64,000 nucleotides of DNA from Phorcus lineatus. Lineage: Eukaryota; Mollusca; Gastropoda; Trochida; Trochidae. Under the pieces are notes generated by a model. That model was not told the origin of the DNA, did no database searches, and saw only the letters and a list, made by a program, of their open reading frames with translations. The stretch's first letter is position 1. Each line of letters starts with the position of its first letter. A program made the translations under genes and the position numbers. Location of the stretch: assembly GCA_921293015.1 (NCBI GenBank), contig OV121088.1, positions 26,511,645 to 26,575,644 on the forward strand. The letters run 5' to 3'. Positions 12,050 to 64,000 of the stretch are shown here, in pieces.

Positions 12050-14215
12050 AATGGTTTAATTAATATACGGTATGCTCCTTGTGTAAATATGAACTTTAAA
12101 AACTCATTAGCAAAACTTTTAGTGGAAAAACAAAGGTATAAAAATTCGGTAAAATCACCAAATTCCAATCTGATTATAATCGATATTCACAAATTATTAC
12201 CCTCCTGATTTTGTGCTTTTATGGGGAAATTTCGATAAAAGTACTTCCGGCCTGAGCTAGTCTTTGTTGAGTCCATACATTAATTAAAGTTTTTTAGAAA
12301 TCTGATTTGTGTGAGCTTACCACCATGTTTGAAGGAGATTTATTTATTCAATATTTCTTACTGATGACTGTCTTGCACTTCAACTATGATTTCATAATAT
12401 GAGTAAGCTCTACTTTGTCTGTGACTACTAATTAAATAGTTGACAGTTTTAAACTAAAATAATGGTTCTGGGTTATTCATTTTATATTTGGGATTGTTAA
12501 AATTTTTTTTAGAAGTATTATATCTCTGTTTTCTCTTGTAAATATTCATATCTGTGCTACATTTTGCAGGAGAATTTAGTTGACCTCTTTCAACAAAAAA
12601 TAATGCTTGTTTTGCCATGTTTATTTAGTCTTGTATTCGTTTTTAAATGATCCAAAATGATTAACTGCTATAATCAACATATCAAATACCAAGATTAACT
12701 GAAAGGGGTTCTTATTTACAACATCGATTTGTCTCTCACTTTTCAGATCACACATGGTAAAAGAGTATGTCTTACTTTTCACAACAGCAAATTAATCAAA
12801 CCTGGTAAACAGTATGTCCATTTTAGCAAAAATCATTTAAATACATAATATTTTAAATTGGGAACTTTATATGGTGGGGACTGTAATTTGTTGTATATGG
12901 TGGTGTCATTGTCACATTACGCTTCGAGTTTGACTTTTTTCACAAGGTTGAAATATCTGCATTGTATAGCTTGAATATATCTTATGTGTGTTTGTATATG
13001 TTCAAATCAAGTAGCTACTGGTAGTAATTTTCATTACATTGTGCTCTAGATGAAATAGAGCCAAGAGATATTTGATTTGCATTAATTGTGTGGGTTAAAC
13101 ACTCTGAAGTAATCATATGTATCTTACAGTTATGACCTTTTTGTCTTATTTCAATGACATTTCAATGATTTCCACCAAATTGAATGGTATAAGAATCAGG
13201 GGCTTGCAAAGATAAAGGGCTTTCCCCAATAATAACATAAGTTATATTTCATAACACTTTAAGGCTTCATATCATATAATTCCTTGTACTTTTTTGGAAT
13301 GTGAATATCGATCTTCACAATGTCAAAAAATCAATCCCTGTCAGATTTTGACATTTCTTACGAGATATCCGATAAAGTGACTTAAAGTAGATGAAGAGTT
13401 ATGATGGAATTTCAACAATTAAAATTAAAATTTTCTCTTTTATCTAACAAATTTTTGTTTGTTTTTAGTAATAGAATTTGATGATATAATAACCTTAACT
13501 TTGGATTCTTTCATTTATCTAATGCATGCTATACCTATAGAGTAATAAGAAATCTTCATCATGATTTTGTTATTTTAACCGGAGCATATATATAGTTATC
13601 TTAATTTTCACGATCATTTAACTCTTTCCATTCCATGGTCAAAATTTCATGTGTAAACCCACGAAGCCTCCAGTTTCTTTTAAAAACGTGACACTCTCAA
13701 AAAGGCATGTGTTGTTAAGTCTCTCAGTTGTAATGTTTGGCATAGCTTAACATTCATCATGAATTGTCAGTTACCAAAATTTGTATGATTTAAATATGAT
13801 TATCAAGTCAACTCTTTGAATGCATTGTTGGCATACCTAGGTCAATTTCGGCCCAAACCTCACTCTTAAATACTTTGTCAGAAAACATTTTTATAAATCT
13901 GTGACTGTGTAACTATATCAGTTGGTAAGTTGGCTTATTATGAAGGTTTTCAACATTTGAGGTAACATATTCTATCGGTGAAAAGCTACAACTGAATTAT
14001 GTTTATTATTGAGAGTTGTATTTGCCCTGATAACATGACTTTAGGATTTGCGTTGAACATTTGATAAAGTATGGAAAGAGTTGGATCTTCAACATTGATA
14101 GATGGCTGATTGTTTTCCTTGTCTTCATTTGTAGCATAGTGATTAATAAAAAATATAATCAAGACTCTTTATGTTTATTACTGACACACTTAGATAATTT
14201 TGAATCTTGAAAAAA
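12050..14215 (+). repeat. 2.2-kb dispersed duplication, copy A
   Basis: Aligns in the same orientation with 37685-40275. Shared landmarks in order: TATGCTCCTTGTGTAAATAT (12072 / 37704), GATTTGTGTGAGCTTACCAC (12303 / 38130), CTTTGTCTGTGACTACTA, TTTTAAATGATC...GATTAACTGCTAT, GTGCTCTAG...GAAATAGAGC, AAGTTATATTTCATAA, TTAACTCTTTCCATTC, and GGCTGATTGTTTNCC near the end. It is diverged with many indels, so old. It has no ORF of note on either strand. It may be a duplicated piece of locus or two copies of a long non-coding transposon. Confidence 0.8.
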
Positions 14216-21709: not shown

Positions 21710-34606
<12,897 letters not shown>

Positions 34607-37684: not shown

Positions 37685-40275
37685 TGTTTAATTTTTCGTA
37701 TGTATGCTCCTTGTGTAAATATGAACAAACTCATTAGTCAAAATTTGGGTTGAAAAACAAAGGCATAAAACATAGTAAAATTACCAAATTCCAAGCTGAC
37801 AAAACCATGTTATTAACAGACCGAGGAGATCTAAGATTTCAGAAAATCTTATTTGAAAAACTATGATAGCTGGGAATCTGGAATTTCTCATTTGGGATTT
37901 CTCATTACCTGATTTAGTTGAGGTTTTGAATTTATAATTTTTTATCAGATTTTTATAGAGTTGAAGATTTTTATTCTTTTTCATTAATAACAAATATATT
38001 CATGTTAAGAATGTTGACAAATTGTTACCATTCTGATTTTGTGCATTTCGGGGAAATTTTCTTCGAAGGACTTCAGGCCTTATAGCTAAAAGTCCTTATA
38101 GCTTCAATTTGTTGATTGAAGTTGGAAATAAGATTTGTGTGAGCTTACCACCTTGTTTGAAGGAGATTTATTGGTTTAATATGTCTTACTGATGACTTGC
38201 ACTGCAACTTTGGTTCCATATTAAGTCAATAGGTTCAACTTTGTCTGTGACTACTATAATTAATAAGTTGTCAATTTTAAACTCTGTACTAAAAGGTTTT
38301 GGGTTATTAAAGTAGTTCTAAGATTTTAGAAGTATCAAATCTTCGTTTTTTCTTTTAAATATTCATATCTCTGTACTTTTTGCAGGAGAATTAAGTAGAC
38401 CTCTTTCAACAAAATTAATGCTTTTGTTGCCATGTTAATTTACTCTTGTATTTGTTTTTAAATGATCTGAAATGATTAACTGCTATATTCAACATATCAA
38501 AAACCAATGTTACTGAGTGGGGTGAAGGTGAAGGGGTGCTAATTTAAAACAATGATTTGATCTTCACATTTACAGATCGCACATGATTAAAAGAGTATAT
38601 CTGTTCATATGAGCAAATCAGTCAATTGTTGTACACAATATGTCAATTGGAGCAACATATTCAGTGAAATCCATCATTTAAATACAAAATAATTTAATAA
38701 GGGACCTGGTTTGTTGAATATGGTGGTGTCACCTCTCACAATGCGATTAAAGTTTGACTTTTTTCCCAAAGTAAGGTTGAAATATCCAACATATTTTGCA
38801 TTGTACAGCATGATTATTATCCTGATATTTGTGTATGTTAAAATCAAGTAGAAAGTACTTTTCATTATACAGTGCTCTAGTGGAAATAGAGCAAAGAGAC
38901 ATTTGATTGACATTAAGTGTGTGGGTGAAACACTCAAATTATCATTTGAATATTAATAATGATCTTTTTGTCTTACATGATTCATATTTAAAAGATTTTC
39001 ATCAAAATGAATGCTATAAATGCAGCATCAGGGCTTGCTAAGATAAGGTGTTCCCAACAACAACAGAAGTTATATTTCATAAGGAGCACTGTCATTGAGT
39101 CCATCAAACTTGTAGGGATTTATGTCTTTTAAGTCTTTTTCCCTTTTCGAAAAGTGAAAAAGATCATCAACATATCAAAATAATGATTCCTGTCTAATTG
39201 CTATGTTGTGCTTTACAAAAAAGATTTGTTACTTTTTTACATTAATTATGAGATATTTGATAAAGTGATGAAGTAATGGTGTATGTGATAAGTAATGATT
39301 GAAAGTAGGAAGCATAAAAGAATCTAAGAGCTACAGTTGCTTCGCCAAATAGGCTCTTTGATACCCTGACGATAAACTCTATGATACTGGTCGAAGAGGT
39401 TATATAGCTACAGCTCTGCAGCTGAAAAGAATCAAATTGAAACACCATGGAAAATTGCTCTTATAACTTACAAAATTTAAAAAGTTAATTATCAATAGTT
39501 TTAGGCTTCCTTGAAAAAATTACATAAGGAATTAATTAAACGATACTTCTAACTTACACTTGTGCTTGCATGCTATTGCTAATTGTTGAAAATTGATAAG
39601 CAGAAATATTCTTGATTATGATACCATTATCCAGAAAAAGTATGTAACTATGTTTATTTTCATTTCAGTGGTTTAACTCTTTCCATTCTAAGGCCAAGAT
39701 ACTTGCAACCCTCCAGTTTTTATAACATGACACTAACATAGCAGGCAAGTGTTGATAATTTTTGCAGTAGTATGTGATATATTAAAGAAGTAATATTTGA
39801 TACCTAGAAGATGATCAAGTGAGTTCTTTAGATACATTTTTTCAGTACTTCATTTCGACCTGCCTATTTAAATACATTGTCAAGTTCAACACTTGCAATA
39901 AAAGGACATAAGGCTGGAAAACTGAAATTTGTTGAGTTGACAAGTTATTACATCATTTGTAATGAAACATGGTAAAAATTTACATATTTTGAGCTTCACA
40001 GAAAGCTTACAACTGAAAATGTTTATTGGCATGAAAGGGTTGTATATGCCTGGACATGATGTATGTGCAGCTGTAACATTTGCTATGGCATGGAAAGAGT
40101 GACACAGTCCAAACTATCTTTATTCAAGATATATGTTCTAGTTGCTTTGAATTGAAATGAGTGTCTGAACATTGACAGAGGGCTGATTGTTTGCCACTGA
40201 CTTTATCTGTATCATAATGGTTAATAAAACATTATAATCAAGATTTTTTGTGTTGTTGATGACAAACTTAATCAC
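37685..40275 (+). repeat. 2.2-kb dispersed duplication, copy B
   Basis: Partner of 12050-14215, same orientation. Copy B has about 200 extra bases at 37805-38010 and an extra stretch near 40105-40170. No ORF is shared between the copies in frame, so it is not a decayed gene that I can recognise. Confidence 0.8.
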
Positions 40276-45868: not shown

Positions 45869-46330
45869 ATGGAGATGATGTTTACTCCTGTTCGAGGCAA
45901 GATTCAGAGGAACTACAGCTCATCCACCCCTATGAAAGGTAAAGATGTCCTACCCCCGAACATCCGTCTGACGCCGATCAGACCAAAGCCAACCGGAGAT
46001 TGTGGGCGATGCAAAGTTTTCAAACGTCTGGAGCAGGATCTGAATATCGATATTCCTGTCATGTCCAGTCCGCGACTCGAAATTGTCCGTAAACGCATCA
46101 CCTCCAACCACTGTAAAGCCATCCAGAGACGCAAGGAGAAGATACGCTACCAACAAAACGACGCAATCTTAAACCGGAAACGTCTCCACCTGAAGGAGAA
46201 GGATCGCGCACTAAAGCGCAAGTACGTCGAGCTAAGGTTGAAGATGGCGACCATATTGGATTCTTCATTTGAAGAGAGTCTGTTGAAATCCTCAGCATCA
46301 AATAAGGAACCTCGTGTGTCTCTGGAGTAG
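45869..46330 (+). CDS. small intronless gene, unknown function
   Basis: 153 codons, more GC-rich than the surroundings. The start MEMMFTPVRGK follows GCCAAAATGG, a good start context; a second Met at codon 3 or 4 is an alternative. The N-terminal 45 residues are Pro/Thr/Ser-rich and basic; GDCGRC at 43-48 is a CxxC pair. Residues about 80-130 are a strongly basic, charged helix (RRKEKIRYQQ, LKEKDRALKRKY) likely to form a coiled coil or bind nucleic acid. The C-terminus is Ser-rich. AATAAA lies 111 bp after the stop (46441), so a complete transcription unit is plausible. I do not recognise the family. It ends 430 bp before the recombinase array and may be a host gene next to the insertion site or a retrocopy. 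Confidence 0.55.
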   Translation: MEMMFTPVRGKIQRNYSSSTPMKGKDVLPPNIRLTPIRPKPTGDCGRCKVFKRLEQDLNIDIPVMSSPRLEIVRKRITSNHCKAIQRRKEKIRYQQNDAILNRKRLHLKEKDRALKRKYVELRLKMATILDSSFEESLLKSSASNKEPRVSLE

Positions 46331-46446: not shown

Positions 46447-46760
46447 ACGATATAATTCATTATTTTTAGGTTGTTGTAATCATAGTATATAAAGTTCTAT
46501 ATCAAGCGTTAGAAATGTATAATAAAGTGAATGCATACACAGAAGAAAACCAAACCCAACTCACCAGGTAAATAATGTTCATTGACATAATAGCTTCAGT
46601 TTCCTAGAAGAGTGATGAAGAACGATTTGTATCACTCTGTTGTCTAAAACTTTATAACACAAAACTCATTCTGAAAGCGATTATTCATCATACAAGAAGA
46701 AGAAGAAGAAGAAGAAATGTATTTTATTAAAGTGTCACACTGCATACAGGCAACATACAT
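46447..46760. other. non-coding flank of the array with (AAG)n
   Basis: Holds an (AAG)7-8 microsatellite at 46694-46716. TTTATT at 46723-46728 reads AATAAA on the minus strand, and could serve as poly(A) signal for unit 1, whose own linker signal is absent. The array begins at 46761 within CATACAT|TACACCC. Confidence 0.55.
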
Positions 46761-46994
46761 TACACCCTGGCTAAAGTGTTATATCAAGGATCTGTCAAGG
46801 AATTCATTTCGTGTATTTGTTTTATAACTTGTGATTCTGGCAAAATATTCTAATGAATCCCCCATGAATACTTAAGAAGAAAATGGAGATTTTACTCTCA
46901 GATACATGCTACCTAGACGGAAAGCTCCGAAATGTACTATGTACTATGACAGTTGTTAACTTGTAAAAAAACAAGACAAAGGCGTAGAGACATT

Positions 46995-49900
46995 TCACAT
47001 TTTAATATTGACGTTTGAACAGTTGTTCAATACCAGGTGAACAGTTTGTTCAGGAGACTTTGATTCAAGAACCACTGAATCATTGGACGAACCGGCAGTT
47101 TCCGGCGAACATTTTGCCACCACAGATCTTGGACGTTTACCAGCATGGTCGATTCCCAGGAGGATCTCTGACACTTTCCGCTTTTGATCGTCAGATGTTC
47201 TTTTATATGCTTGAACAGCATTGCTCCTGTGTCCAGTCTGTTCCATGATGATTTGCTCGTCTACTCCAGCGTGGTAGAGTCGCGATGCAGTCGAGGCTCT
47301 CAACGAATGGTTAGTAAAGTAACCTTCAATCGCAGCTGCTTTCATCATACTTTTAACCTGTTCTTCAAGTGTATTTTCCCCCACCGGTTTATGTGAGAAC
47401 CAAACATTGTCCTTCACATTCAGCAAAGGTTTGAAGTACAAGATTGTGGGATCTCTGTTTGGAGGCAGTTTGGATTCATATAACTCAAACACAGACACTG
47501 GACATTTCTTACGGTCGTTTTTGTTCTCATATGCTCTTGCACTGTGTGGATTTGTGTTTCGGTTCTTCAGACCTCCAGTGTAGGTCTTATTAACAGATTG
47601 AGTATATTCCAAATAGCGGCTTCCGGAACTGTCGACCTTTAAGTCAAAGTTGTTAAAGGTCAAAGATCTGTGCTCCTGTCCTCCACGCAAACCAAAATTT
47701 AATCCAATCATCCAAAAGAACGTGTTGTACAATCTTTGGGGAGAATCAACTCCAAGAAATCCCTTTTCCCATAAAACACTCTCAGTTTGAGGAGTAATTA
47801 TTTGTACCTGTTTGCGTGACACTTTAATTCCCTTTGCACACTTGTCCTGCATTGTAGTGTCCAATGTTGTTTTGAGATCCTTGTAGATTGTATCCTGGAA
47901 GAAGTCAAGGTCTCTGCCCTCATATCGAAGGTGCCTCTGAATTCCACATATGATCGAGAGTATACTTTCTCCTTTGTATTCCTTGCCATCCGTCTTCCTC
48001 AAGGCGATGATGAATAGACACATTGTGGTATTTATATCCGCATCCGACATATCCACTAGAGTGTTGGTACAACCATTCAGGAGGTTGAAGATATATCCGT
48101 GCTTACGTCTGTTGTCGACAACCGAAATGAATTCGTCCCTCCATTTTGTGAAGACATTTACAGCCCATCTGTTCTTTTTAAGGGTGTTTTCCGGTATGTT
48201 GGGCTTCTTTCTTGTCGCCAACAGCTCGGCGCTCACATCTTCGAAACGTTTTGAGGTATCCTAAAATATACAGATGTCAATGAAGCTCAAAGCATTTCAT
48301 AAAACAGTTTTGTACATAAAAGTACAGAATCTAATAAAACCAAACACTGTAGATTGAAGGATCAAACAAAATTGAGGTACTGAAAGCCGATAGCAAATGG
48401 CGAATATACCAATATAACGTTTTATAATTTACATTATATATTATTACATGAAAGCAAATGTCGAAAAATTACATTTGAGAATCCGAGAAACTATGTTATG
48501 TTAAGTATTCATGAATTAAATGAGATAACTGAGAATGTAACAGTTTACCGAAATGTTTGGTACGCAAGAAATTGTGTCAATTTCGTTGGCATTGCGTTAG
48601 TCAAACATCAATTAATGGTGGTTGCTTTGCGTTAGTCAAATATCAATTAATGGTGGTTGTACTTTATACCATCACTATTTTTTTCCAATTTAATGAGTTA
48701 AATCGGGTAGAACTTTAAACAACTAGAAGGTTTACTTACTCCTTTGGTATCATTCGTAGCAAATGGTTTGACAGGTCGACTTGTTGCAATTTGGCAAGGA
48801 CCGGCATCATCCAACATATCGGTAAGGTCTACTGCTGTATCTACAGCCGCCAGCTGAGAATCTGTATAAATAGAACAAAGCACTTATTACTACTTCAATA
48901 AAAATGTTGCCGAGTACAACAAACTTGGAATATCCAACGGCTGAGGAAATTTAGTAGAAATTCATTCCAAAACAAGTTATTTATCCATTTTTCAAACGGA
49001 ACTTACACATTTTCGATGTGTGTGTGAACACCATTTAATTTAAGTCATGTGAAGAGTTCAAAAACTAAATGGAGTCATTCCAGATGATTTTTAAAGTATA
49101 CAGAAAAGTTCACCTGAAATGTGTGGAATGGTTTTCGCTACATCCAACAGGTGTTCATATTCTTCCCCTTCAGATGGTTCGCTGACAGGTTCTGGAAATG
49201 ATAACAACGTACTCTGTACTCATGATTTGATTTAAACATAATTTATTCATTTAAGAACGGAACAAGTTATCTAACTTAGGTTACCTTCTCACAGGTATTT
49301 ACAGTTATAGCGTTATACAAATATAACTGTGACATGGACAGACATAATACAGAAATTTACGGAGAATTTAAGACACACACACGCATACACACATGGACGG
49401 CTTTAAAATGGCCTGGTTTTGAAAATAGAATAGATTATTGTTGCCATTTAACAGTAAATCGAAATTTAAGGCATCACCATGTACATGCAAGTTTAGAAGA
49501 TTAAACACTTTCTTTCTGGGCGCATGCTATAAAGGACACTCAAACGTGAAATGAAAAATATTTTCGCATAGGTAACAACAGTGTACATCTTTGTACTCAT
49601 GTTCCAATAAGGAACCGACAATCATCTACCGCTACTGGTACTTTACAACGATTTCTAATGAATTACCAAGCACGAATATCAGGATATCACTCTAAAATTG
49701 TAATATTTAGGGTATGCTTTACCTGTTTCAGGCAAGTACCTGTCCTGTGTCAAGGACAACGCTAAGCCCTCCGAATCTTGTCCATGTTCATTTGCCACTG
49801 GAAATCAAAATATGGAATATACTATTCGAACAAGCTTCAGAGTATAGCATGCACATTCTGCAATGTATAAATTTAAAAAAATAATTTATAGGTGCTGCGA

Positions 49901-50094
49901 AGCCTTTTCCAATACCTTGGGACATTTCAAAATATGACTTCAATCTATCATACATCAAACTTCTCTTACATGATTGAATTGTCAGTCATTTGGTTAACTG
50001 TAAAATAAGGAAAATACTCACATGTTTCTCTTGTCAACTCCGACATATCGAGCGCCTGACTAATTATATCGTCGGACTCTGAGTCCAATTCCAT
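46995..50094 (-). CDS. Crypton-type tyrosine recombinase, unit 1
   Basis: Exons (minus) 50022-50094, 49723-49797, 49114-49191, 48740-48861 and 46995-48260; same 537-residue product as the unit 3 copy, described there. Private change: Lys to Glu in the KPVG(K/E)NTLEE loop (codon at 47376-47378), outside the catalytic motifs. Unit 1 abuts host DNA 234 bp after its stop and lacks the linker-borne AATAAA, so its transcript must end in host sequence. All splice sites are preserved. Confidence 0.88.
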
Positions 50095-50378
50095 GACTTC
50101 AGACGTCAAAAGACAACGATCAAGTGAGTCGTAAGTTGCCTACACCACGTGCTTATATGAATCCCTGTGCACGTGTTTTATGCCGATTAACGTTGTAAAC
50201 GCTGCATTCGGTCGCATCGTTCTTCGTGTTCCCGACCACCGCAATGACAAGAGCGTATTCTTGCAGAAATGTGTTCTTCCAGATGGTATAAAAGTGATAT
50301 TCCAGGTATTAAGCGCCAAGGTTATGACTCTAAGTTTACGTTGCATAACGGTGTGGATCTCTGTTCCAATCTTAACCT

Positions 50379-50550
50379 GGGTGTAAATAATTTACCACGC
50401 CTCGACTCCGGGGTTCATGGTCTATGAATCCCTCAGCACGTGCTGCACACCCTCGCCCGCTCCGCGGGCTCGGGTGTGCATACCGCACGTGCTGAGGGAT
50501 TCATAGACCATGAACCCCAGAGTCTCGGGTAGTAACTTTTATTTACACCC
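50379..50550. repeat. hairpin linker between units 1 and 2
   Basis: Same sequence and orientation as the central linker at 54162 except for A instead of G at 50519, which breaks one pair of the outer stem. On its left is the 5' end of unit 1 and on its right the 3' end of unit 2, that is, a head-to-tail joint. Confidence 0.9.
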
Positions 50551-50777
50551 TGGCTAAAGTGTTATATCAAGGATCTGTCAAGGAATTCATTTCGTGTATT
50601 TGTTTTATAACTTGTGATTCTGGCAAAATATTCTAATGAATCCCCCATGAATACTTAAGAAGAAAATGGAGATTTTACTCTCAGATACATGCTACCTAGA
50701 CGGAAAGCTCCGAAATGTACTATGTACTATGACAGTTGTTAACTTGTAAAAAAACAAGACAAAGGCGTAGAGACATT

Positions 50778-53700
50778 TCACATTTTAATATTGACGTTTG
50801 AACAGTTGTTCAATACCAGGTGAACAGTTTGTTCAGGAGACTTTGATTCAAGAACCACTGAATCATTGGACGAACCGGCAGTTTCCGGCGAACATTTTGC
50901 CACCACAGATCTTGGACGTTTACCAGCATGGTCGATTCCCAGGAGGATCTCTGACACTTTCCGCTTTTGATCGTCAGATGTTCTTTTATATGCTTGAACA
51001 GCATTGCTCCTGTGTCCAGTCTGTTCCATGATGATTTGCTCGTCTACTCCAGCGTGGTAGAGTCGCGATGCAGTCGAGGCTCTCAACGAATGGTTAGTAA
51101 AGTAACCTTCAATCGCAGCTGCTTTCATCATACTTTTAACCTGTTCTTCAAGTGTATTTTTCCCCACCGGTTTATGTGAGAACCAAACATTGTCCTTCAC
51201 ATTCAGCAAAGGTTTGAAGTACAAGATTGTGGGATCTCTGTTTGGAGGCAGTTTGGATTCATATAACTCAAACACAGACACTGGACATTTCTTACGGTCG
51301 TTTTTGTTCTCATATGCTCTTGCACTGTGTGGATTTGTGTTTCGGTTCTTCAGACCTCCAGTGTAGGTCTTATTAACAGATTGAGTATATTCCAAATAGC
51401 GGCTTCCGGAACTGTCGACCTTTAAGTCAAAGTTGTTAAAGGTCAAAGATCTGTGCTCCTGTCCTCCACGCAAACCAAAATTTAATCCAATCATCCAAAA
51501 GAACGTGTTGTACAATCTTTGGGGAGAATCAACTCCAAGAAATCCCTTTTCCCATAAAACACTCTCAGTTTGAGGAGTAATTATTTGTACCTGTTTGCGT
51601 GACACTTTAATTCCCTTTGCACACTTGTCCTGCATTGTAGTGTCCAATGTTGTTTTGAGATCCTTGTAGATTGTATCCTGGAAGAAGTCAAGGTCTCTGC
51701 CCTCATATCGAAGGTGCCTCTGAATTCCACATATGATCGAGAGTATACTTTCTCCTTTGTATTCCTTGCCATCCGTCTTCCTCAAGGCGATGATGAATAG
51801 ACACATTGTGGTATTTATATCCGCATCCGACATATCCACTAGAGTGTTGGTACAACCATTCAGGAGGTTGAAGATATATCCGTGCTTACGTCTGTTGTCG
51901 ACAACCGAAATGAATTCGTCCCTCCATTTTGTGAAGACATTTACAGCCCATCTGTTCTTTTTAAGGGTGTTTTCCGGTATGTTGGGCTTCTTTCTTGTCG
52001 CCAACAGCTCGGCGCTCACATCTTCGAAACGTTTTGAGGTATCCTAAAATATACAGATGTCAATGAAGCTCAAAGCATTTCATAAAACAGTTTTGTACAT
52101 AAAAGTACAGAATCTAATAAAACCAAACACTGTAGATTGAAGGATCAAACAAAATTGAGGTACTGAAAGCCGATAGCAAATGGCGAATATACCAATATAA
52201 CGTTTTATAATTTACATTATATATTATTACATGAAAGCAAATGTCGAAAAATTACATTTGAGAATCCGAGAAACTATGTTATGTTAAGTATTCATGAATT
52301 AAATGAGATAACTGAGAATGTAACAGTTTACCGAAATGTTTGGTACGCAAGAAATTGTGTCAATTTCGTTGGCATTGCGTTAGTCAAACATCAATTAATG
52401 GTGGTTGCTTTGCGTTAGTCAAATATCAATTAATGGTGGTTGTACTTTATACCATCACTATTTTTTTCCAATTTAATGAGTTAAATCGGGTAGAACTTTA
52501 AACAACTAGAAGGTTTACTTACTCCTTTGGTATCATTCGTAGCAAATGGTTTGACAGGTCGACTTGTTGCAATTTGGCAAGGACCGGCATCATCCAACAT
52601 ATCGGTAAGGTCTACTGCTGTATCTACAGCCGCCAGCTGAGAATCTGTATAAATAGAACAAAGCACTTATTACTACTTCAATAAAAATGTTGCCGAGTAC
52701 AACAAACTTGGAATATCCAACGGCTGAGGAAATTTAGTAGAAATTCATTCCAAAACAAGTTATTTATCCATTTTTCAAACGGAACTTACACATTTTCGAT
52801 GTGTGTGTGAACACCATTTAATTTAAGTCATGTGAAGAGTTCAAAAACTAAATGGAGTCATTCCAGATGATTTTTAAAGTATACAGAAAAGTTCACCTGA
52901 AATGTGTGGAATGGTTTTCGCTACATCCAACAGGTGTTCATATTCTTCCCCTTCAGATGGTTCGCTGACAGGTTCTGGAAATGATAACAACGTACTCTGT
53001 ACTCATGATTTGATTTAAACATAATTTATTCATTTAAGAACGGAACAAGTTATCTAACTTAGGTTACCTTCTCACAGGTATTTACAGTTATAGCGTTATA
53101 CAAATATAACTGTGACATGGACAGACATAATACAGAAATTTACGGAGAATTTAAGACACACACACGCATACACACATGGACGGCTTTAAAATGGCCTGGT
53201 TTTGAAAATAGAATAGATTATTGTTGCCATTTAACAGTAAATCGAAATTTAAGGCATCACCATGTACATGCAAGTTTAGAAGATTAAACACTTTCTTTCT
53301 GGGCGCATGCTATAAAGGACACTCAAACGTGAAATGAAAAATATTTTCGCATAGGTAACAACAGTGTACATCTTTGTACTCATGTTCCAATAAGGAACCG
53401 ACAATCATCTACCGCTACTGGTACTTTACAACGATTTCTAATGAATTACCAAGCACGAATATCAGGATATCACTCTAAAATTGTAATATTTAGGGTATGC
53501 TTTACCTGTTTCAGGCAAGTACCTGTCCTGTGTCAAGGACAACGCTAAGCCCTCCGAATCTTGTCCATGTTCATTTGCCACTGGAAATCAAAATATGGAA
53601 TATACTATTCGAACAAGCTTCAGAGTATAGCATGCACATTCTGCAATGTATAAATTTAAAAAAATAATTTATAGGTGCTGCGAAGCCTTTTCCAATACCT

Positions 53701-53877
53701 TGGGACATTTCAAAATATGACTTCAATCTATCATACATCAAACTTCTCTTACATGATTGAATTGTCAGTCATTTGGTTAACTGTAAAATAAGGAAAATAC
53801 TCACATGTTTCTCTTGTCAACTCCGACATATCGAGCGCCTGACTAATTATATCGTCGGACTCTGAGTCCAATTCCAT
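50778..53877 (-). CDS. Crypton-type tyrosine recombinase, unit 2
   Basis: Exons (minus) 53805-53877, 53506-53580, 52897-52974, 52523-52644 and 50778-52043. The C-terminal 413 residues are identical to those of unit 3. Its promoter faces that of unit 3 across the central hairpin, about 740 bp between start codons. In intron 4 it shares with unit 1 a T (52424; 48641 in unit 1) where units 3-5 have the equivalent of C, marking units 1 and 2 as one lineage. Confidence 0.9.
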
Positions 53878-54161
53878 GACTTCAGACGTCAAAAGACAAC
53901 GATCAAGTGAGTCGTAAGTTGCCTACACCACGTGCTTATATGAATCCCTGTGCACGTGTTTTATGCCGATTAACGTTGTAAACGCTGCATTCGGTCGCAT
54001 CGTTCTTCGTGTTCCCGACCACCGCAATGACAAGAGCGTATTCTTGCAGAAATGTGTTCTTCCAGATGGTATAAAAGTGATATTCCAGGTATTAAGCGCC
54101 AAGGTTATGACTCTAAGTTTACGTTGCATAACGGTGTGGATCTCTGTTCCAATCTTAACCT

Positions 54162-54333
54162 GGGTGTAAATAATTTACCACGCCTCGACTCCGGGGTTCA
54201 TGGTCTATGAATCCCTCAGCACGTGCTGCACACCCTCGCCCGCTCCGCGGGCTCGGGTGTGCATACCGCACGTGCTGAGGGATTCATAGACCATGAACCC
54301 CGGAGTCTCGGGTAGTAACTTTTATTTACACCC
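54162..54333. repeat. central hairpin linker, inversion centre of the array
   Basis: Bounded by GGGTGTAAATAA (54162-54173) and its inverse TTATTTACACCC (54322-54333). Inside, perfect 40-nt arms (54187-54226 and 54268-54307, GACTCCGGGGTTC... inwards to GCACGTGC) enclose a 17-nt inner stem with two mismatches (54227-54243 / 54247-54263), a TCC loop and an unpaired TACC. The short stretches between boundary and arms differ on the two sides, so the linker has a direction. Here both outer flanks are the 5' end of a unit (AACCTGGGTG... / ...CACCCAGGTT), making a head-to-head joint. Confidence 0.93.
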
Positions 54334-54536
54334 AGGTTAAGATTGGAACAGAGATCCACACCGTTATGCAACGTAAACTTAGAGTCATAACCTTGGCGCT
54401 TAATACCTGGAATATCACTTTTATACCATCTGGAAGAACACATTTCTGCAAGAATACGCTCTTGTCATTGCGGTGGTCGGGAACACGAAGAACGATGCGA
54501 CCGAATGCAGCGTTTACAACGTTAATCGGCATAAAA

Positions 54537-54566
54537 CACGTGCACAGGGATTCATATAAGCACGTG
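54537..54566 (+). promoter_or_regulatory. recombinase core promoter, unit 3 (TATA between two E-boxes)
   Basis: TTCATATAAG (54551-54560) is a TATA-like box 58 bp before the start codon at 54618, with CACGTG on both sides (54537-54542 and 54561-54566). The same block serves the other units: 50146-50175 and 53929-53958 (minus), 58320-58349 and 62103-62132 (plus). CACGTGCNNAGGGATTCATA here recurs in both arms of the linker hairpin. Confidence 0.6.
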
Positions 54567-54617
54567 GTGTAGGCAACTTACGACTCACTTGATCGTTGTC
54601 TTTTGACGTCTGAAGTC

Positions 54618-57600
54618 ATGGAATTGGACTCAGAGTCCGACGATATAATTAGTCAGGCGCTCGATATGTCGGAGTTGACAAGAGAAACATGTGAGTATTT
54701 TCCTTATTTTACAGTTAACCAAATGACTGACAATTCAATCATGTAAGAGAAGTTTGATGTATGATAGATTGAAGTCATATTTTGAAATGTCCCAAGGTAT
54801 TGGAAAAGGCTTCGCAGCACCTATAAATTATTTTTTTAAATTTATACATTGCAGAATGTGCATGCTATACTCTGAAGCTTGTTCGAATAGTATATTCCAT
54901 ATTTTGATTTCCAGTGGCAAATGAACATGGACAAGATTCGGAGGGCTTAGCGTTGTCCTTGACACAGGACAGGTACTTGCCTGAAACAGGTAAAGCATAC
55001 CCTAAATATTACAATTTTAGAGTGATATCCTGATATTCGTGCTTGGTAATTCATTAGAAATCGTTGTAAAGTACCAGTAGCGGTAGATGATTGTCGGTTC
55101 CTTATTGGAACATGAGTACAAAGATGTACACTGTTGTTACCTATGCGAAAATATTTTTCATTTCACGTTTGAGTGTCCTTTATAGCATGCGCCCAGAAAG
55201 AAAGTGTTTAATCTTCTAAACTTGCATGTACATGGTGATGCCTTAAATTTCGATTTACTGTTAAATGGCAACAATAATCTATTCTATTTTCAAAACCAGG
55301 CCATTTTAAAGCCGTCCATGTGTGTATGCGTGTGTGTGTCTTAAATTCTCCGTAAATTTCTGTATTATGTCTGTCCATGTCACAGTTATATTTGTATAAC
55401 GCTATAACTGTAAATACCTGTGAGAAGGTAACCTAAGTTAGATAACTTGTTCCGTTCTTAAATGAATAAATTATGTTTAAATCAAATCATGAGTACAGAG
55501 TACGTTGTTATCATTTCCAGAACCTGTCAGCGAACCATCTGAAGGGGAAGAATATGAACACCTGTTGGATGTAGCGAAAACCATTCCACACATTTCAGGT
55601 GAACTTTTCTGTATACTTTAAAAATCATCTGGAATGACTCCATTTAGTTTTTGAACTCTTCACATGACTTAAATTAAATGGTGTTCACACACACATCGAA
55701 AATGTGTAAGTTCCGTTTGAAAAATGGATAAATAACTTGTTTTGGAATGAATTTCTACTAAATTTCCTCAGCCGTTGGATATTCCAAGTTTGTTGTACTC
55801 GGCAACATTTTTATTGAAGTAGTAATAAATGCTTTGTTCTATTTATACAGATTCTCAGCTGGCGGCTGTAGATACAGCAGTAGACCTTACCGATATGTTG
55901 GATGATGCCGGTCCTTGCCAAATTGCAACAAGTCGACCTGTCAAACCATTTGCTACGAATGATACCAAAGGAGTAAGTAAACCTTCTAGTTGTTTAAAGT
56001 TCTACCCGATTTAACTCATTAAATTGGAAAAAAATAGTGATGGTATAAAGTACAACCACCATTAATTGATGTTTGACTAACGCAAAGCAACCACCATTAA
56101 TTGATGTTTGACTAACGCAATGCCAACAAAATTGACACAATTTCTTGCGTACCAAACATTTCGGTAAACTGTTACATTCTCAGTTATCTCATTTAATTCA
56201 TGAATACTTAACATAACATAGTTTCTCGGATTCTCAAATGTAATTTTTCGACATTTGCTTTCATGTAATAATATATAATGTAAATTATAAAACGTTATAT
56301 TGGTATATTCGCCATTTGCTATCGGCTTTCAGTACCTCAATTTTGTTTGATCCTTCAATCTACAGTGTTTGGTTTTATTAGATTCTGTACTTTTATGTAC
56401 AAAACTGTTTTATGAAATGCTTTGAGCTTCATTGACATCTGTATATTTTAGGATACCTCAAAACGTTTCGAAGATGTGAGCGCCGAGCTGTTGGCGACAA
56501 GAAAGAAGCCCAACATACCGGAAAACACCCTTAAAAAGAACAGATGGGCTGTAAATGTCTTCACAAAATGGAGGGACGAATTCATTTCGGTTGTCGACAA
56601 CAGACGTAAGCACGGATATATCTTCAACCTCCTGAATGGTTGTACCAACACTCTAGTGGATATGTCGGATGCGGATATAAATACCACAATGTGTCTATTC
56701 ATCATCGCCTTGAGGAAGACGGATGGCAAGGAATACAAAGGAGAAAGTATACTCTCGATCATATGTGGAATTCAGAGGCACCTTCGATATGAGGGCAGAG
56801 ACCTTGACTTCTTCCAGGATACAATCTACAAGGATCTCAAAACAACATTGGACACTACAATGCAGGACAAGTGTGCAAAGGGAATTAAAGTGTCACGCAA
56901 ACAGGTACAAATAATTACTCCTCAAACTGAGAGTGTTTTATGGGAAAAGGGATTTCTTGGAGTTGATTCTCCCCAAAGATTGTACAACACGTTCTTTTGG
57001 ATGATTGGATTAAATTTTGGTTTGCGTGGAGGACAGGAGCACAGATCTTTGACCTTTAACAACTTTGACTTAAAGGTCGACAGTTCCGGAAGCCGCTATT
57101 TGGAATATACTCAATCTGTTAATAAGACCTACACTGGAGGTCTGAAGAACCGAAACACAAATCCACACAGTGCAAGAGCATATGAGAACAAAAACGACCG
57201 TAAGAAATGTCCAGTGTCTGTGTTTGAGTTATATGAATCCAAACTGCCTCCAAACAGAGATCCCACAATCTTGTACTTCAAACCTTTGCTGAATGTGAAG
57301 GACAATGTTTGGTTCTCACATAAACCGGTGGGGAAAAATACACTTGAAGAACAGGTTAAAAGTATGATGAAAGCAGCTGCGATTGAAGGTTACTTTACTA
57401 ACCATTCGTTGAGAGCCTCGACTGCATCGCGACTCTACCACGCTGGAGTAGACGAGCAAATCATCATGGAACAGACTGGACACAGGAGCAATGCTGTTCA
57501 AGCATATAAAAGAACATCTGACGATCAAAAGCGGAAAGTGTCAGAGATCCTCCTGGGAATCGACCATGCTGGTAAACGTCCAAGATCTGTGGTGGCAAAA

Positions 57601-57717
57601 TGTTCGCCGGAAACTGCCGGTTCGTCCAATGATTCAGTGGTTCTTGAATCAAAGTCTCCTGAACAAACTGTTCACCTGGTATTGAACAACTGTTCAAACG
57701 TCAATATTAAAATGTGA
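54618..57717 (+). CDS. Crypton-type tyrosine recombinase (DUF3504-like), unit 3
   Basis: Exons 54618-54690, 54915-54989, 55521-55598, 55851-55972 and 56452-57717 (phases 1,1,1,0) give 1614 nt, 537 residues. Exons 1-4 (about 122 residues) encode an acidic, Ser-rich head beginning MELDSESDDI. The long last exon holds the recombinase: a core-binding-like helical part (NTLKKNRWAVNVFTKWRDEF, residues about 142-161), then the catalytic domain with R308 (NFGLRGGQEH), H434-x-x-R437 (NHSLRAS), H460 (TGHRS) and nucleophile Y468 (AVQAYKR). All five residues of the tyrosine-recombinase set are present, so the enzyme is probably active. The GLNFGLRGGQEH signature is that of Cryptons and their domesticated relatives (ZMYM2-4, QRICH1, KIAA1958). 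Such enzymes move circular DNA by strand exchange through a 3'-phosphotyrosine. Intron 4 contains a 35-bp direct duplication at 56053-56122. Confidence 0.92.
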
Positions 57718-57944
57718 AATGTCTCTACGCCTTTGTCTTGTTTTTTTACAAGTTAACAACTGTCATAGTACATAGTACATTTCGGAGCTTTCCGTCTAGG
57801 TAGCATGTATCTGAGAGTAAAATCTCCATTTTCTTCTTAAGTATTCATGGGGGATTCATTAGAATATTTTGCCAGAATCACAAGTTATAAAACAAATACA
57901 CGAAATGAATTCCTTGACAGATCCTTGATATAACACTTTAGCCA

Positions 57945-58116
57945 GGGTGTAAATAAAAGTTACTACCCGAGACTCCGGGGTTCATGGTCTATGAATCCCT
58001 CAGCACGTGCGGTATGCACACCCGAGCCCGCGGAGCGGGCGAGGGTGTGCAGCACGTGCTGAGGGATTCATAGACCATGAACCCCGGAGTCGAGGCGTGG
58101 TAAATTATTTACACCC
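57945..58116. repeat. hairpin linker between units 3 and 4
   Basis: Exact reverse complement of the central linker. Its AAATAAAAG start supplies AATAAA at 57952-57957, 235 bp after the unit 3 stop, a plausible poly(A) signal for that gene. Confidence 0.9.
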
Positions 58117-58400
58117 AGGTTAAGATTGGAACAGAGATCCACACCGTTATGCAACGTAAACTTAGAGTCATAACCTTGGCGCTTAATACCTGGAATATCA
58201 CTTTTATACCATCTGGAAGAACACATTTCTGCAAGAATACGCTCTTGTCATTGCGGTGGTCGGGAACACGAAGAACGATGCGACCGAATGCAGCGTTTAC
58301 AACGTTAATCGGCATAAAACACGTGCACAGGGATTCATATAAGCACGTGGTGTAGGCAACTTACGACTCACTTGATCGTTGTCTTTTGACGTCTGAAGTC

Positions 58401-61400
58401 ATGGAATTGGACTCAGAGTCCGACGATATAATTAGTCAGGCGCTCGATATGTCGGAGTTGACAAGAGAAACATGTGAGTATTTTCCTTATTTTACAGTTA
58501 ACCAAATGACTGACAATTCAATCATGTAAGAGAAGTTTGATGTATGATAGATTGAAGTCATATTTTGAAATGTCCCAAGGTATTGGAAAAGGCTTCGCAG
58601 CACCTATAAATTATTTTTTTAAATTTATACATTGCAGAATGTGCATGCTATACTCTGAAGCTTGTTCGAATAGTATATTCCATATTTTGATTTCCAGTGG
58701 CAAATGAACATGGACAAGATTCGGAGGGCTTAGCGTTGTCCTTGACACAGGACAGGTACTTGCCTGAAACAGGTAAAGCATACCCTAAATATTACAATTT
58801 TAGAGTGATATCCTGATATTCGTGCTTGGTAATTCATTAGAAATCGTTGTAAAGTACCAGTAGCGGTAGATGATTGTCGGTTCCTTATTGGAACATGAGT
58901 ACAAAGATGTACACTGTTGTTACCTATGCGAAAATATTTTTCATTTCACGTTTGAGTGTCCTTTATAGCATGCGCCCAGAAAGAAAGTGTTTAATCTTCT
59001 AAACTTGCATGTACATGGTGATGCCTTAAATTTCGATTTACTGTTAAATGGCAACAATAATCTATTCTATTTTCAAAACCAGGCCATTTTAAAGCCGTCC
59101 ATGTGTGTATGCGTGTGTGTGTCTTAAATTCTCCGTAAATTTCTGTATTATGTCTGTCCATGTCACAGTTATATTTGTATAACGCTATAACTGTAAATAC
59201 CTGTGAGAAGGTAACCTAAGTTAGATAACTTGTTCCGTTCTTAAATGAATAAATTATGTTTAAATCAAATCATGAGTACAGAGTACGTTGTTATCATTTC
59301 CAGAACCTGTCAGCGAACCATCTGAAGGGGAAGAATATGAACACCTGTTGGATGTAGCGAAAACCATTCCACACATTTCAGGTGAACTTTTCTGTATACT
59401 TTAAAAATCATCTGGAATGACTCCATTTAGTTTTTGAACTCTTCACATGACTTAAATTAAATGGTGTTCACACACACATCGAAAATGTGTAAGTTCCGTT
59501 TGAAAAATGGATAAATAACTTGTTTTGGAATGAATTTCTACTAAATTTCCTCAGCCGTTGGATATTCCAAGTTTGTTGTACTCGGCAACATTTTTATTGA
59601 AGTAGTAATAAGTGCTTTGTTCTATTTATACAGATTCTCAGCTGGCGGCTGTAGATACAGCAGTAGACCTTACCGATATGTTGGATGATGCCGGTCCTTG
59701 CCAAATTGCAACAAGTCGACCTGTCAAACCATTTGCTACGAATGATACCAAAGGAGTAAGTAAACCTTCTAGTTGTTTAAAGTTCTACCCGATTTAACTC
59801 ATTAAATTGGAAAAAAATAGTGATGGTATAAAGTACAACCACCATTAATTGATGTTTGACTAACGCAAAGCAACCACCATTAATTGATGTTTGACTAACG
59901 CAATGCCAACGAAATTGACACAATTTCTTGCGTACCAAACATTTCGGTAAACTGTTACATTCTCAGTTATCTCATTTAATTCATGAATACTTAACATAAC
60001 ATAGTTTCTCGGATTCTCAAATGTAATTTTTCGACATTTGCTTTCATGTAATAATATATAATGTAAATTATAAAACGTTATATTGGTATATTCGCCATTT
60101 GCTATCGGCTTTCAGTACCTCAATTTTGTTTGATCCTTCAATCTACAGTGTTTGGTTTTATTAGATTCTGTACTTTTATGTACAAAACTGTTTTATGAAA
60201 TGCTTTGAGCTTCATTGACATCTGTATATTTTAGGATACCTCAAAACGTTTCGAAGATGTGAGCGCCGAGCTGTTGGCGACAAGAAAGAAGCCCAACATA
60301 CCGGAAAACACCCTTAAAAAGAACAGATGGGCTGTAAATGTCTTCACAAAATGGAGGGACGAATTCATTTCGGTTGTCGACAACAGACGTAAGCACGGAT
60401 ATATCTTCAACCTCCTGAATGGTTGTACCAACACTCTAGTGGATATGTCGGATGCGGATATAAATACCACAATGTGTCTATTCATCATCGCCTTGAGGAA
60501 GACGGATGGCAAGGAATACAAAGGACAAAGTATACTCTCGATCATATGTGGAATTCAGAGGCACCTTCGATATGAGGGCAGAGACCTTGACTTCTTCCAG
60601 GATACAATCTACAAGGATCTCAAAACAACATTGGACACTACAATGCAGGACAAGTGTGCAAAGGGAATTAAAGTGTCACGCAAACAGGTACAAATAATTA
60701 CTCCTCAAACTGAGAGTGTTTTATGGGAAAAGGGATTTCTTGGAGTTGATTCTCCCCAAAGATTGTACAACACGTTCTTTTGGATGATTGGATTAAATTT
60801 TGGTTTGCGTGGAGGACAGGAGCACAGATCTTTGACCTTTAACAACTTTGACTTAAAGGTCGACAGTTCCGGAAGCCGCTATTTGGAATATACTCAATCT
60901 GTTAATAAGACCTACACTGGAGGTCTGAAGAACCGAAACACAAATCCACACAGTGCAAGAGCATATGAGAACAAAAACGACCGTAAGAAATGTCCAGTGT
61001 CTGTGTTTGAGTTATATGAATCCAAACTGCCTCCAAACAGAGATCCCACAATCTTGTACTTCAAACCTTTGCTGAATGTGAAGGACAATGTTTGGTTCTC
61101 ACATAAACCGGTGGGGAAAAATACACTTGAAGAACAGGTTAAAAGTATGATGAAAGCAGCTGCGATTGAAGGTTACTTTACTAACCATTCGTTGAGAGCC
61201 TCGACTGCATCGCGACTCTACCACGCTGGAGTAGACGAGCAAATCATCATGGAACAGACTGGACACAGGAGCAATGCTGTTCAAGCATATAAAAGAACAT
61301 CTGACGATCAAAAGCGGAAAGTGTCAGAGATCCTCCTGGGAATCGACCATGCTGGTAAACGTCCAAGATCTGTGGTGGCAAAATGTTCGCCGGAAACTGC

Positions 61401-61500
61401 CGGTTCGTCCAATGATTCAGTGGTTCTTGAATCAAAGTCTCCTGAACAAACTGTTCACCTGGTATTGAACAACTGTTCAAACGTCAATATTAAAATGTGA
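58401..61500 (+). CDS. Crypton-type tyrosine recombinase, unit 4
   Basis: Exons 58401-58473, 58698-58772, 59304-59381, 59634-59755 and 60235-61500; product as unit 3. Private change: Glu to Gln in EYKG(E/Q)S (codon 60526-60528), in the N-terminal helical part. It lacks two substitutions seen only in unit 3 (55829 and 56128), where it has the same bases as units 1 and 2. Intact. Confidence 0.9.
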
Positions 61501-61727
61501 AATGTCTCTACGCCTTTGTCTTGTTTTTTTACAAGTTAACAACTGTCATAGTACATAGTACATTTCGGAGCTTTCCGTCTAGGTAGCATGTATCTGAGAG
61601 TAAAATCTCCATTTTCTTCTTAAGTATTCATGGGGGATTCATTAGAATATTTTGCCAGAATCACAAGTTATAAAACAAATACACGAAATGAATTCCTTGA
61701 CAGATCCTTGATATAACACTTTAGCCA

Positions 61728-61899
61728 GGGTGTAAATAAAAGTTACTACCCGAGACTCCGGGGTTCATGGTCTATGAATCCCTCAGCACGTGCGGTATGC
61801 ACACCCGAGCCCGCGGAGCGGGCGAGGGTGTGCAGCACGTGCTGAGGGATTCATAGACCATGAACCCCGGAGTCGAGGCGTGGTAAATTATTTACACCC
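61728..61899. repeat. hairpin linker between units 4 and 5
   Basis: Same as the linker at 57945, including AATAAA (61735-61740) downstream of the unit 4 gene. Confidence 0.9.
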
Positions 61900-62183
61900 A
61901 GGTTAAGATTGGAACAGAGATCCACACCGTTATGCAACGTAAACTTAGAGTCATAACCTTGGCGCTTAATACCTGGAATATCACTTTTATACCATCTGGA
62001 AGAACACATTTCTGCAAGAATACGCTCTTGTCATTGCGGTGGTCGGGAACACGAAGAACGATGCGACCGAATGCAGCGTTTACAACGTTAATCGGCATAA
62101 AACACGTGCACAGGGATTCATATAAGCACGTGGTGTAGGCAACTTACGACTCACTTGATCGTTGTCTTTTGACGTCTGAAGTC

Positions 62184-64000
62184 ATGGAATTGGACTCAGA
62201 GTCCGACGATATAATTAGTCAGGCGCTCGATATGTCGGAGTTGACAAGAGAAACATGTGAGTATTTTCCTTATTTTACAGTTAACCAAATGACTGACAAT
62301 TCAATCATGTAAGAGAAGTTTGATGTATGATAGATTGAAGTCATATTTTGAAATGTCCCAAGGTATTGGAAAAGGCTTCGCAGCACCTATAAATTATTTT
62401 TTTAAATTTATACATTGCAGAATGTGCATGCTATACTCTGAAGCTTGTTCGAATAGTATATTCCATATTTTGATTTCCAGTGGCAAATGAACATGGACAA
62501 GATTCGGAGGGCTTAGCGTTGTCCTTGACACAGGACAGGTACTTGCCTGAAACAGGTAAAGCATACCCTAAATATTACAATTTTAGAGTGATATCCTGAT
62601 ATTCGTGCTTGGTAATTCATTAGAAATCGTTGTAAAGTACCAGTAGCGGTAGATGATTGTCGGTTCCTTATTGGAACATGAGTACAAAGATGTACACTGT
62701 TGTTACCTATGCGAAAATATTTTTCATTTCACGTTTGAGTGTCCTTTATAGCATGCGCCCAGAAAGAAAGTGTTTAATCTTCTAAACTTGCATGTACATG
62801 GTGATGCCTTAAATTTCGATTTACTGTTAAATGGCAACAATAATCTATTCTATTTTCAAAACCAGGCCATTTTAAAGCCGTCCATGTGTGTATGCGTGTG
62901 TGTGTCTTAAATTCTCCGTAAATTTCTGTATTATGTCTGTCCATGTCACAGTTATATTTGTATAACGCTATAACTGTAAATACCTGTGAGAAGGTAACCT
63001 AAGTTAGATAACTTGTTCCGTTCTTAAATGAATAAATTATGTTTAAATCAAATCATGAGTACAGAGTACGTTGTTATCATTTCCAGAACCTGTCAGCGAA
63101 CCATCTGAAGGGGAAGAATATGAACACCTGTTGGATGTAGCGAAAACCATTCCACACATTTCAGGTGAACTTTTCTGTATACTTTAAAAATCATCTGGAA
63201 TGACTCCATTTAGTTTTTGAACTCTTCACATGACTTAAATTAAATGGTGTTCACACACACATCGAAAATGTGTAAGTTCCGTTTGAAAAATGGATAAATA
63301 ACTTGTTTTGGAATGAATTTCTACTAAATTTCCTCAGCCGTTGGATATTCCAAGTTTGTTGTACTCGGCAACATTTTTATTGAAGTAGTAATAAGTGCTT
63401 TGTTCTATTTATACAGATTCTCAGCTGGCGGCTGTAGATACAGCAGTAGACCTTACCGATATGTTGGATGATGCCGGTCCTTGCCAAATTGCAACAAGTC
63501 GACCTGTCAAACCATTTGCTACGAATGATACCAAAGGAGTAAGTAAACCTTCTAGTTGTTTAAAGTTCTACCCGATTTAACTCATTAAATTGGAAAAAAA
63601 TAGTGATGGTATAAAGTACAACCACCATTAATTGATGTTTGACTAACGCAAAGCAACCACCATTAATTGATGTTTGACTAACGCAATGCCAACGAAATTG
63701 ACACAATTTCTTGCGTACCAAACATTTCGGTAAACTGTTACATTCTCAGTTATCTCATTTAATTCATGAATACTTAACATAACATAGTTTCTCGGATTCT
63801 CAAATGTAATTTTTCGACATTTGCTTTCATGTAATAATATATAATGTAAATTATAAAACGTTATATTGGTATATTCGCCATTTGCTATCGGCTTTCAGTA
63901 CCTCAATTTTGTTTGATCCTTCAATCTACAGTGTTTGGTTTTATTAGATTCTGTACTTTTATGTACAAAACTGTTTTATGAAATGCTTTGAGCTTCATTG
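62184..64000 (+). CDS. Crypton-type tyrosine recombinase, unit 5 (cut by window)
   Basis: Exons 1-4 at 62184-62256, 62481-62555, 63087-63164 and 63417-63538 are complete with their splice sites. The catalytic exon should begin at 64018, just outside the window. Nothing in the visible part is broken, so a fifth full copy is likely. Confidence 0.85.

Follow-up and report, generated by a model that had tools for sequence, protein, structure and literature searches.

A two-way array of a CryptonA-like tyrosine recombinase element with a palindromic linker in the genome of the gastropod Phorcus lineatus

Introduction

Cryptons of animals, including CryptonA, have a tyrosine recombinase as their sole enzyme and are the described mobile elements with which the locus analyzed here is most readily compared (PMC3212892). 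Insertions of fungal and stramenopile Cryptons are flanked on each side by short direct repeats of 4-6 bp; none have been found for the animal elements, and no terminal repeats have been reported for the latter (PMC3212892). A circular intermediate has been proposed for Cryptons (cited in Kojima and Jurka 2011, PMC3212892). Here, we describe an array of a Crypton-like element in a 64,000-nucleotide stretch of the Phorcus lineatus genome (assembly GCA_921293015.1, contig OV121088.1, positions 26,511,645 to 26,575,644 of the forward strand; hereafter, the window). The element shares with CryptonA and the animal Cryptons the tyrosine recombinase as the only enzyme, the relationship to DUF3504, and the lack of a detectable C-terminal extra domain, but differs from the animal Cryptons in that its termini form short, imperfect inverted repeats, its spacer is a palindrome, and its copies are arranged in both directions (PMC3212892). 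In the main text of that paper, the word "hairpin" does not occur and "tandem" occurs once, in the reference list. Across titles and abstract openings, with subscription journals and Repbase outside the scope, we found no description of a two-way Crypton array or of a palindromic Crypton spacer, and the main text of a survey of bivalve transposons (PMC10294476) contains neither "Crypton" nor "tyrosine recombinase".

Several other systems share individual features with this array. In the yeast 2-micron plasmid, the Flp recombinase, as is proposed here, acts on inverted sites (FRT) of its own multi-copy element, and inversion is linked to amplification; however, the plasmid is circular and extrachromosomal, and its FRT sites lie within inverted repeats of 599 bp, whereas here the exact match between borders measures 12 bp and the copies, seen as an end product, form one array (PMC3147054). 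Symmetrical lox sites (PMC10850332) and the SCRaMbLE system (PMC4691749) resemble the array in that their sites allow several types of rearrangement among many copies, but those sites are engineered, whereas the candidate site in the array occurs naturally and owes its two orientations to the opposite directions of the borders on either side of the linker. Inverted-repeat-replacing transposition of IS1272 also ties a mobile element to palindromic DNA; IS1272, however, is a bacterial insertion sequence, and there is no sign that the present element replaced a palindrome (PMC5678879). On balance, we favor the view that the locus is made up of arrayed copies of a CryptonA-like DNA transposon whose own tyrosine recombinase, an intact, Cre-like enzyme encoded by a spliced gene, inverts units or inserts them at the borders between element and linker, with tandem amplification in addition.

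Results

Structure of the array and the element border

The array is present in the given sequence and consists of two alternating parts that together make up the 3783-bp period: an element (E) of 3623 bp and a linker (L), which is an imperfect palindrome of 160 bp (Table 1). A previous sequence-only reading of the same DNA had treated the 3783-bp period as a single unit beginning at 46761; the period stands, and the first copy starts at 46762. The number of visible copies (five; at least five in that reading), their orientation (two on the minus strand and three on the plus strand), and the mirror center at 54247.5, all given in that reading, were confirmed by self-comparison of the 64-kb window and by the borders. 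From the left host border, the layout is <E L+ <E L+ E> L- E> L- E>, the last E being cut at 64000. The mirror arms (46760-54173 and 54322-61735) are 100% complementary at rounding, the entire mirror including the center shows 99.7% identity by BLAST, and the mirror center is the midpoint of the central L. The linkers had been taken for alternating hairpins; instead, the same L occupies all four visible joints, in the orientations + + - -.

The border between E and L is sharply defined. The 12-bp sequence TTATTTACACCC is found at 8/8 visible E/L borders, and TTACACCC occurs in the window solely at the nine visible element ends, the host border among them. At the left host border, E is present without L; compared with the 12-bp site, this junction has three mismatches, each on the host side of ACACCC, and the TT preceding the first copy recurs at other borders. 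The element border is the same at the host junction and inside the array, in line with the earlier claim of a defined element. The first copy together with its L is flanked on either side by TTACACCC, and the far host border lies beyond the window. The head of E (ACACCCAGGTTAA) and its inverted tail (ACACCCTGGCTAA) match at 11/13 terminal bases, an end-anchored terminal inverted repeat that 2 of 20000 random pairs equaled. Scans of viral contigs (with the protein and a piece of L) and of genome contigs returned no relatives with DNA context to which the ends of E and L could be compared.

Origin of the head-to-head center

At the three head-to-tail joints, the E head lies at L end a and the tail at end b, the two ends of L being distinguishable; at the center, both L ends adjoin heads (Table 1). 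We simulated crossovers in a uniform leftward array, with the exact 301-bp center sequence as the target. Crossovers between inverted copies of TTATTTACACCC produced the exact center from 12/16 site pairs, and the remaining four flip a single L. Stem crossovers at 12-bp inverted matches in L never gave the center, either between the first and third L (0/57) or across all ordered pairs of four L (0/470), and neither did any of the 23560 simulated fold-backs with spacers of 0-30 bp. Fold-back and recombination in the palindrome stem were therefore rejected as the origin of the center, and, since only border-site crossovers rebuild it, the head-to-head joint is placed at the element border, not in the hairpin stem. 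The location of the joint at the 12-bp site is specific evidence for the suggestion of the sequence-only reading, namely, that new copies were inserted by the recombinase next to those already present. From the sequence, we infer that the recombinase made this joint.

The chief rival to a recombinase-made joint is template switching at the 12-bp match. Under this scenario, host replication and repair built the array, by template switching at the 12-bp inverted microhomology combined with unequal crossing over or rolling amplification, and the recombinase is a passenger. An exact 12-bp inverted match, such as the one in which the joint sits, may suffice for microhomology-based events, and near-identical copies are to be expected from unequal exchange and gene conversion. 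Nevertheless, a longer, 40-bp exact inverted match in L was left unused, as the failure of all 470 stem crossovers indicates, and the joint coincides with a border that meets host DNA as well. We regard this scenario as rather unlikely.

The palindromic linker

The L stem comprises 69 pairs, with a 40-bp exact inverted match and an asymmetric 4-nt bulge, and the predicted DNA fold has an energy of -74.8 kcal/mol (z -19.7). No Rfam family reaches the gathering score within the window, and L was not matched to a known RNA. A palindrome at 29217-29406 was considered as a relative of L and rejected as unrelated, being a near-perfect palindrome made of a TA dinucleotide run. The long imperfect palindrome and the proposed recombination near the stem base recall the integron attC sites and IntI; unlike in integrons, no cassettes or separate attI are seen in the array.

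A 28-bp motif of E is shared with both arms of L (Table 1). Its score was reached by 0/300 shuffled E sequences and 0/300 window segments. In E, the motif lies in the region before the gene, a putative promoter; approximately 60 bp separate its end from the ATG, and it shares bases with a TATAAG (54555-54560). The pattern CACGTGC-NN-AGGGATTCATA, with up to two mismatches, occurs 13 times in the window, every time within the array; the pattern was derived from the array copies, and the count is informative only as to its absence elsewhere in the window. The motif common to L and the region before the gene is our main reason for regarding L as probably belonging to the element and not to the host. 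The opposite possibility is that L comes from the host: E, as a 3623-bp element with terminal inverted repeats, would have inserted next to, for instance, a palindromic host repeat, and the two would then have been passively duplicated together. This possibility agrees with the occurrence of E without L at the left host border and with the GC content, 0.56 for L versus 0.38 for E. Against this stand the shared motif, which is beyond chance, and the lack of any further L copy within the window, and we consider a host origin of L unlikely. The explanations weighed here are not mutually exclusive: a host-derived L would be compatible with a recombinase-made joint.

Two further details of L were noticed. 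The tip of the central L (54230-54260) reads ACACCC-19 bp-GGGTGT, with the same hexamers as the E ends, which may be due to chance. L end b (57952-57957) starts with AAATAAA, and may provide an AATAAA poly(A) signal for E when the tail adjoins b.

The recombinase gene and its product

In the sequence-based gene model, the recombinase gene of E3 has five predicted exons, the borders of which were picked by eye and checked for frame. The four introns are all GT..AG, and the product is a protein of 537 amino acids (aa). The earlier claim that every visible catalytic exon is intact holds for 4/4 complete copies, in none of which the gene contains an internal stop, whereas the fifth copy is cut before this exon. 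Compared with E3, the only amino-acid changes are E214Q in E4 and K411E in E1, with none in E2.

In the 537-aa product, Pfam identifies the QRICH1, DUF3504, and Phage_integrase domains. Among the 41 homologs, those named to species are mostly from bivalves (Ruditapes, Pecten, Mytilus), the remainder being from a lancelet. In an alignment of the query with 17 of these 41, R184, K217, H310, H336, and Y344 are invariant in 18/18 sequences, and R313 is conserved in at least 90%; we take these six positions to be the catalytic residues of a tyrosine recombinase. R-H-R-Y is the named catalytic tetrad (PMC3212892). A profile search retrieved QRICH1 as the best match, followed, weakly, by XerC-like, IntI4, XerA, and XerH proteins (E 5e-4 to 2e-3). 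The AlphaFold model (mean pLDDT 79.4, pTM 0.64) matches QRICH1 first and then mainly Cre chains, with lower matches to IntI, the Tn1549 integrase, Xer, lambda integrase, and Flp. The template modeling (TM) scores of these matches, by query length, are 0.29-0.47 overall; given these values, the model supports a Cre-like fold class for the recombinase, not the details of the structure.

Pfam detected no reverse transcriptase (RT) domain in the 537-aa protein. Other than the 413-aa open stretch within exon 5, the longest open reading frame (ORF) overlapping 54168-57950 is 104 aa, the short ORFs being left unscanned. A DIRS/Ngaro-type tyrosine recombinase retrotransposon, in which RT/RNase H would accompany the recombinase, was rejected on these two grounds, the lack of an RT in the recombinase protein and of any other ORF longer than 104 aa per unit. 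The Crypton-like assignment of the sequence-only reading stands as far as the enzyme is concerned, with domains, residues, profile, and fold all pointing to a tyrosine recombinase, but strict membership is not supported, given the terminal inverted repeats. On sequence criteria, the element appears to be a Crypton-like variant, not a canonical Crypton: the enzyme fits the definition, and the expected absence of terminal inverted repeats is not observed. The likeness to CryptonA is suggested by the Pfam matches to DUF3504 and QRICH1 and by sequence similarity.

Divergence of the copies

As reported before, the copies differ at few bases: there are six variable sites (5 in E and 1 in L), and any two of the four complete E copies are separated by 1-4 differences over 3623 bases. 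Private bases are found in E1, E3, E4, and one L; the one in E1, at E position 3007, is responsible for K411E. At E site 1744, the left copies have A (2/2) and the right copies have G (3/3, one partial). The total differences (3 between E3 and E4, 2 between E2 and E4) do not group the right arm, and, with so few variable sites, the order of copying is unreadable. The description of the array as recent derives from copy identity, which could also result from gene conversion.

These differences bear on the possibility, which we consider very unlikely, that misassembly produced the head-to-head joint or the number of copies. Palindromic arrays of near-identical 3.8-kb units generally assemble poorly, and the right end of the array is beyond the window; moreover, the a..b center would be compatible with two arrays of opposite orientation having been misjoined at the border. 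An assembly fold-back, however, would put the same L end on both sides, and was rejected because the center is a..b, not a..a, and because none of the simulated fold-backs fits. In addition, the private bases mark distinct copies, unless they are base-calling errors.

Table 1. Coordinates of the array components and of the main features of E3 in the window
Feature	Position	Strand	Remarks
E1, complete, 3623 bp	46762..50384	-	tail end (ACACCCTGG...) adjoins host DNA at 46761/46762
L, + orientation (ends a..b), 160 bp	50385..50544	+	one private base
E2, complete	50545..54167	-	
Central L, + orientation	54168..54327	+	E2 head at end a, E3 head at end b; one long stem
12-bp border site TTATTTACACCC	54322..54333	+	site of the head-to-head joint
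E3, complete	54328..57950	+	imperfect terminal inverted repeats
E motif common with L (E positions 202-229)	54529..54556 in E3	+	23/28 bp in one arm, 18/20 in the other
E3 recombinase gene, five exons	54618-54690, 54915-54989, 55521-55598, 55851-55972, 56452-57717	+	read from sequence
413-aa open stretch within exon 5	56476..57717	+	QRICH1 domain, DUF3504, Phage_integrase; R184 K217 H310 R313 H336 Y344
L, - orientation	57951..58110	-	
E4, complete	58111..61733	+	one private base (E214Q)
L, - orientation	61734..61893	-	
E5, partial	61894..64000	+	first 2107/3623 bp; window end precedes catalytic exon

Other features of the window

Outside the array, the window contains a 349-aa ORF (39-1088) with a DDE_Tnp_1_7 (Transposase IS4) Pfam domain, which we take to be of the piggyBac type, and a TRIM-like ORF of 367 aa (21710-22813), for which the best of 5 matches is a TRIM33-like protein of Haliotis asinina (43% identity). 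A Macro-domain ORF (26101-26769) and an ORF with RING and Deltex C-terminal domains (31048-31545) are separated by approximately 4.3 kb, a pair presumably reminiscent of PARP9/DTX3L-type immunity genes. A repeat of approximately 1.1 kb is present in two copies (12183-13254 and 38011-39082) with 75% identity. An ORF of 153 aa without a Pfam match (45869-46330) lies approximately 430 bp to the left of the array.

Discussion

The explanation that we favor can be put as a sequence of steps. The recombinase would recognize the E/L border and cross over within TTATTTACACCC, which has opposite orientations at either end of L and, likewise, of E. Between borders in direct orientation, insertion of a circle or exchange would yield head-to-tail E-L-E-L units; between inverted borders, the segment between the E ends would flip, or a circle would enter backwards, producing a head-to-head joint with L intact. 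L itself would, most likely, be a cis site, a binding region for the recombinase or another factor and/or the attachment region of a circular form. Such a circular form is a candidate intermediate, and the mobile unit could be either E or E+L. As for the head-to-tail copies, circles may have inserted repeatedly, or else the copies may go back to unequal crossing over or to rolling replication; the data do not discriminate among these.

Several observations weigh against this explanation. When not anchored at the ends, the terminal inverted repeat is weak, with 274 of 5000 random 40-bp pairs aligning equally well. The host flank is unlike the L ends: over 14 bp, 41% of random sites score as well for end b and 68% for end a, and the idea that this flank is a target half-site resembling an L end was dropped as not significant. 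Inspection of the border, by eye only, did not reveal the classical pair of inverted arms (11-13 bp) separated by a spacer of 6-8 bp. In the structural model, the matches to Cre reach modest TM scores, 0.40-0.47 by query length, and residues 338-342, in the loop preceding the presumed active-site tyrosine, are poorly predicted (pLDDT <50). The simulation locates the joint and does not identify the machinery behind it. Finally, the visible evidence amounts to a single array with a single host border, with no circle or empty site there.

Integron IntI acts on attC and protelomerases act on hairpin telomeres, and the least probable of the alternatives is that L is a comparable folded attachment or telomere-like site, with the enzyme acting on an extruded hairpin, not on the double-stranded border: L does fold as one 69-pair stem with the asymmetric bulge and the crossover sites at its base, and IntI4 is among the sequence and fold matches, but resolution at the palindrome center would give a..a or b..b joints, in contrast to the a..b joint observed, and the matches to Cre are stronger than those to IntI.

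An extension of the favored explanation, in which the recombinase acts at the border, would be amplification in place through a self-encoded cycle analogous to that of Flp and the 2-micron plasmid (PMC3147054). Border flips around the palindrome would turn replication into a double rolling circle and generate near-identical copies in both orientations, and the gene promoter and the palindrome would be bound by a common factor serving as a copy-number brake. Such a cycle would explain both orientations at once; it appears quite unlikely.

Circle-based movement of Cryptons is a proposal made by analogy with prokaryotic elements (PMC3212892). With the array, a candidate recombination site of 12 bp, an intact enzyme, and, in L, a candidate cis element become available for joint tests. 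If the interpretation is true, an animal genome would contain a natural system of site-specific inversion and amplification, and the recombinase and its site may form a new pair.

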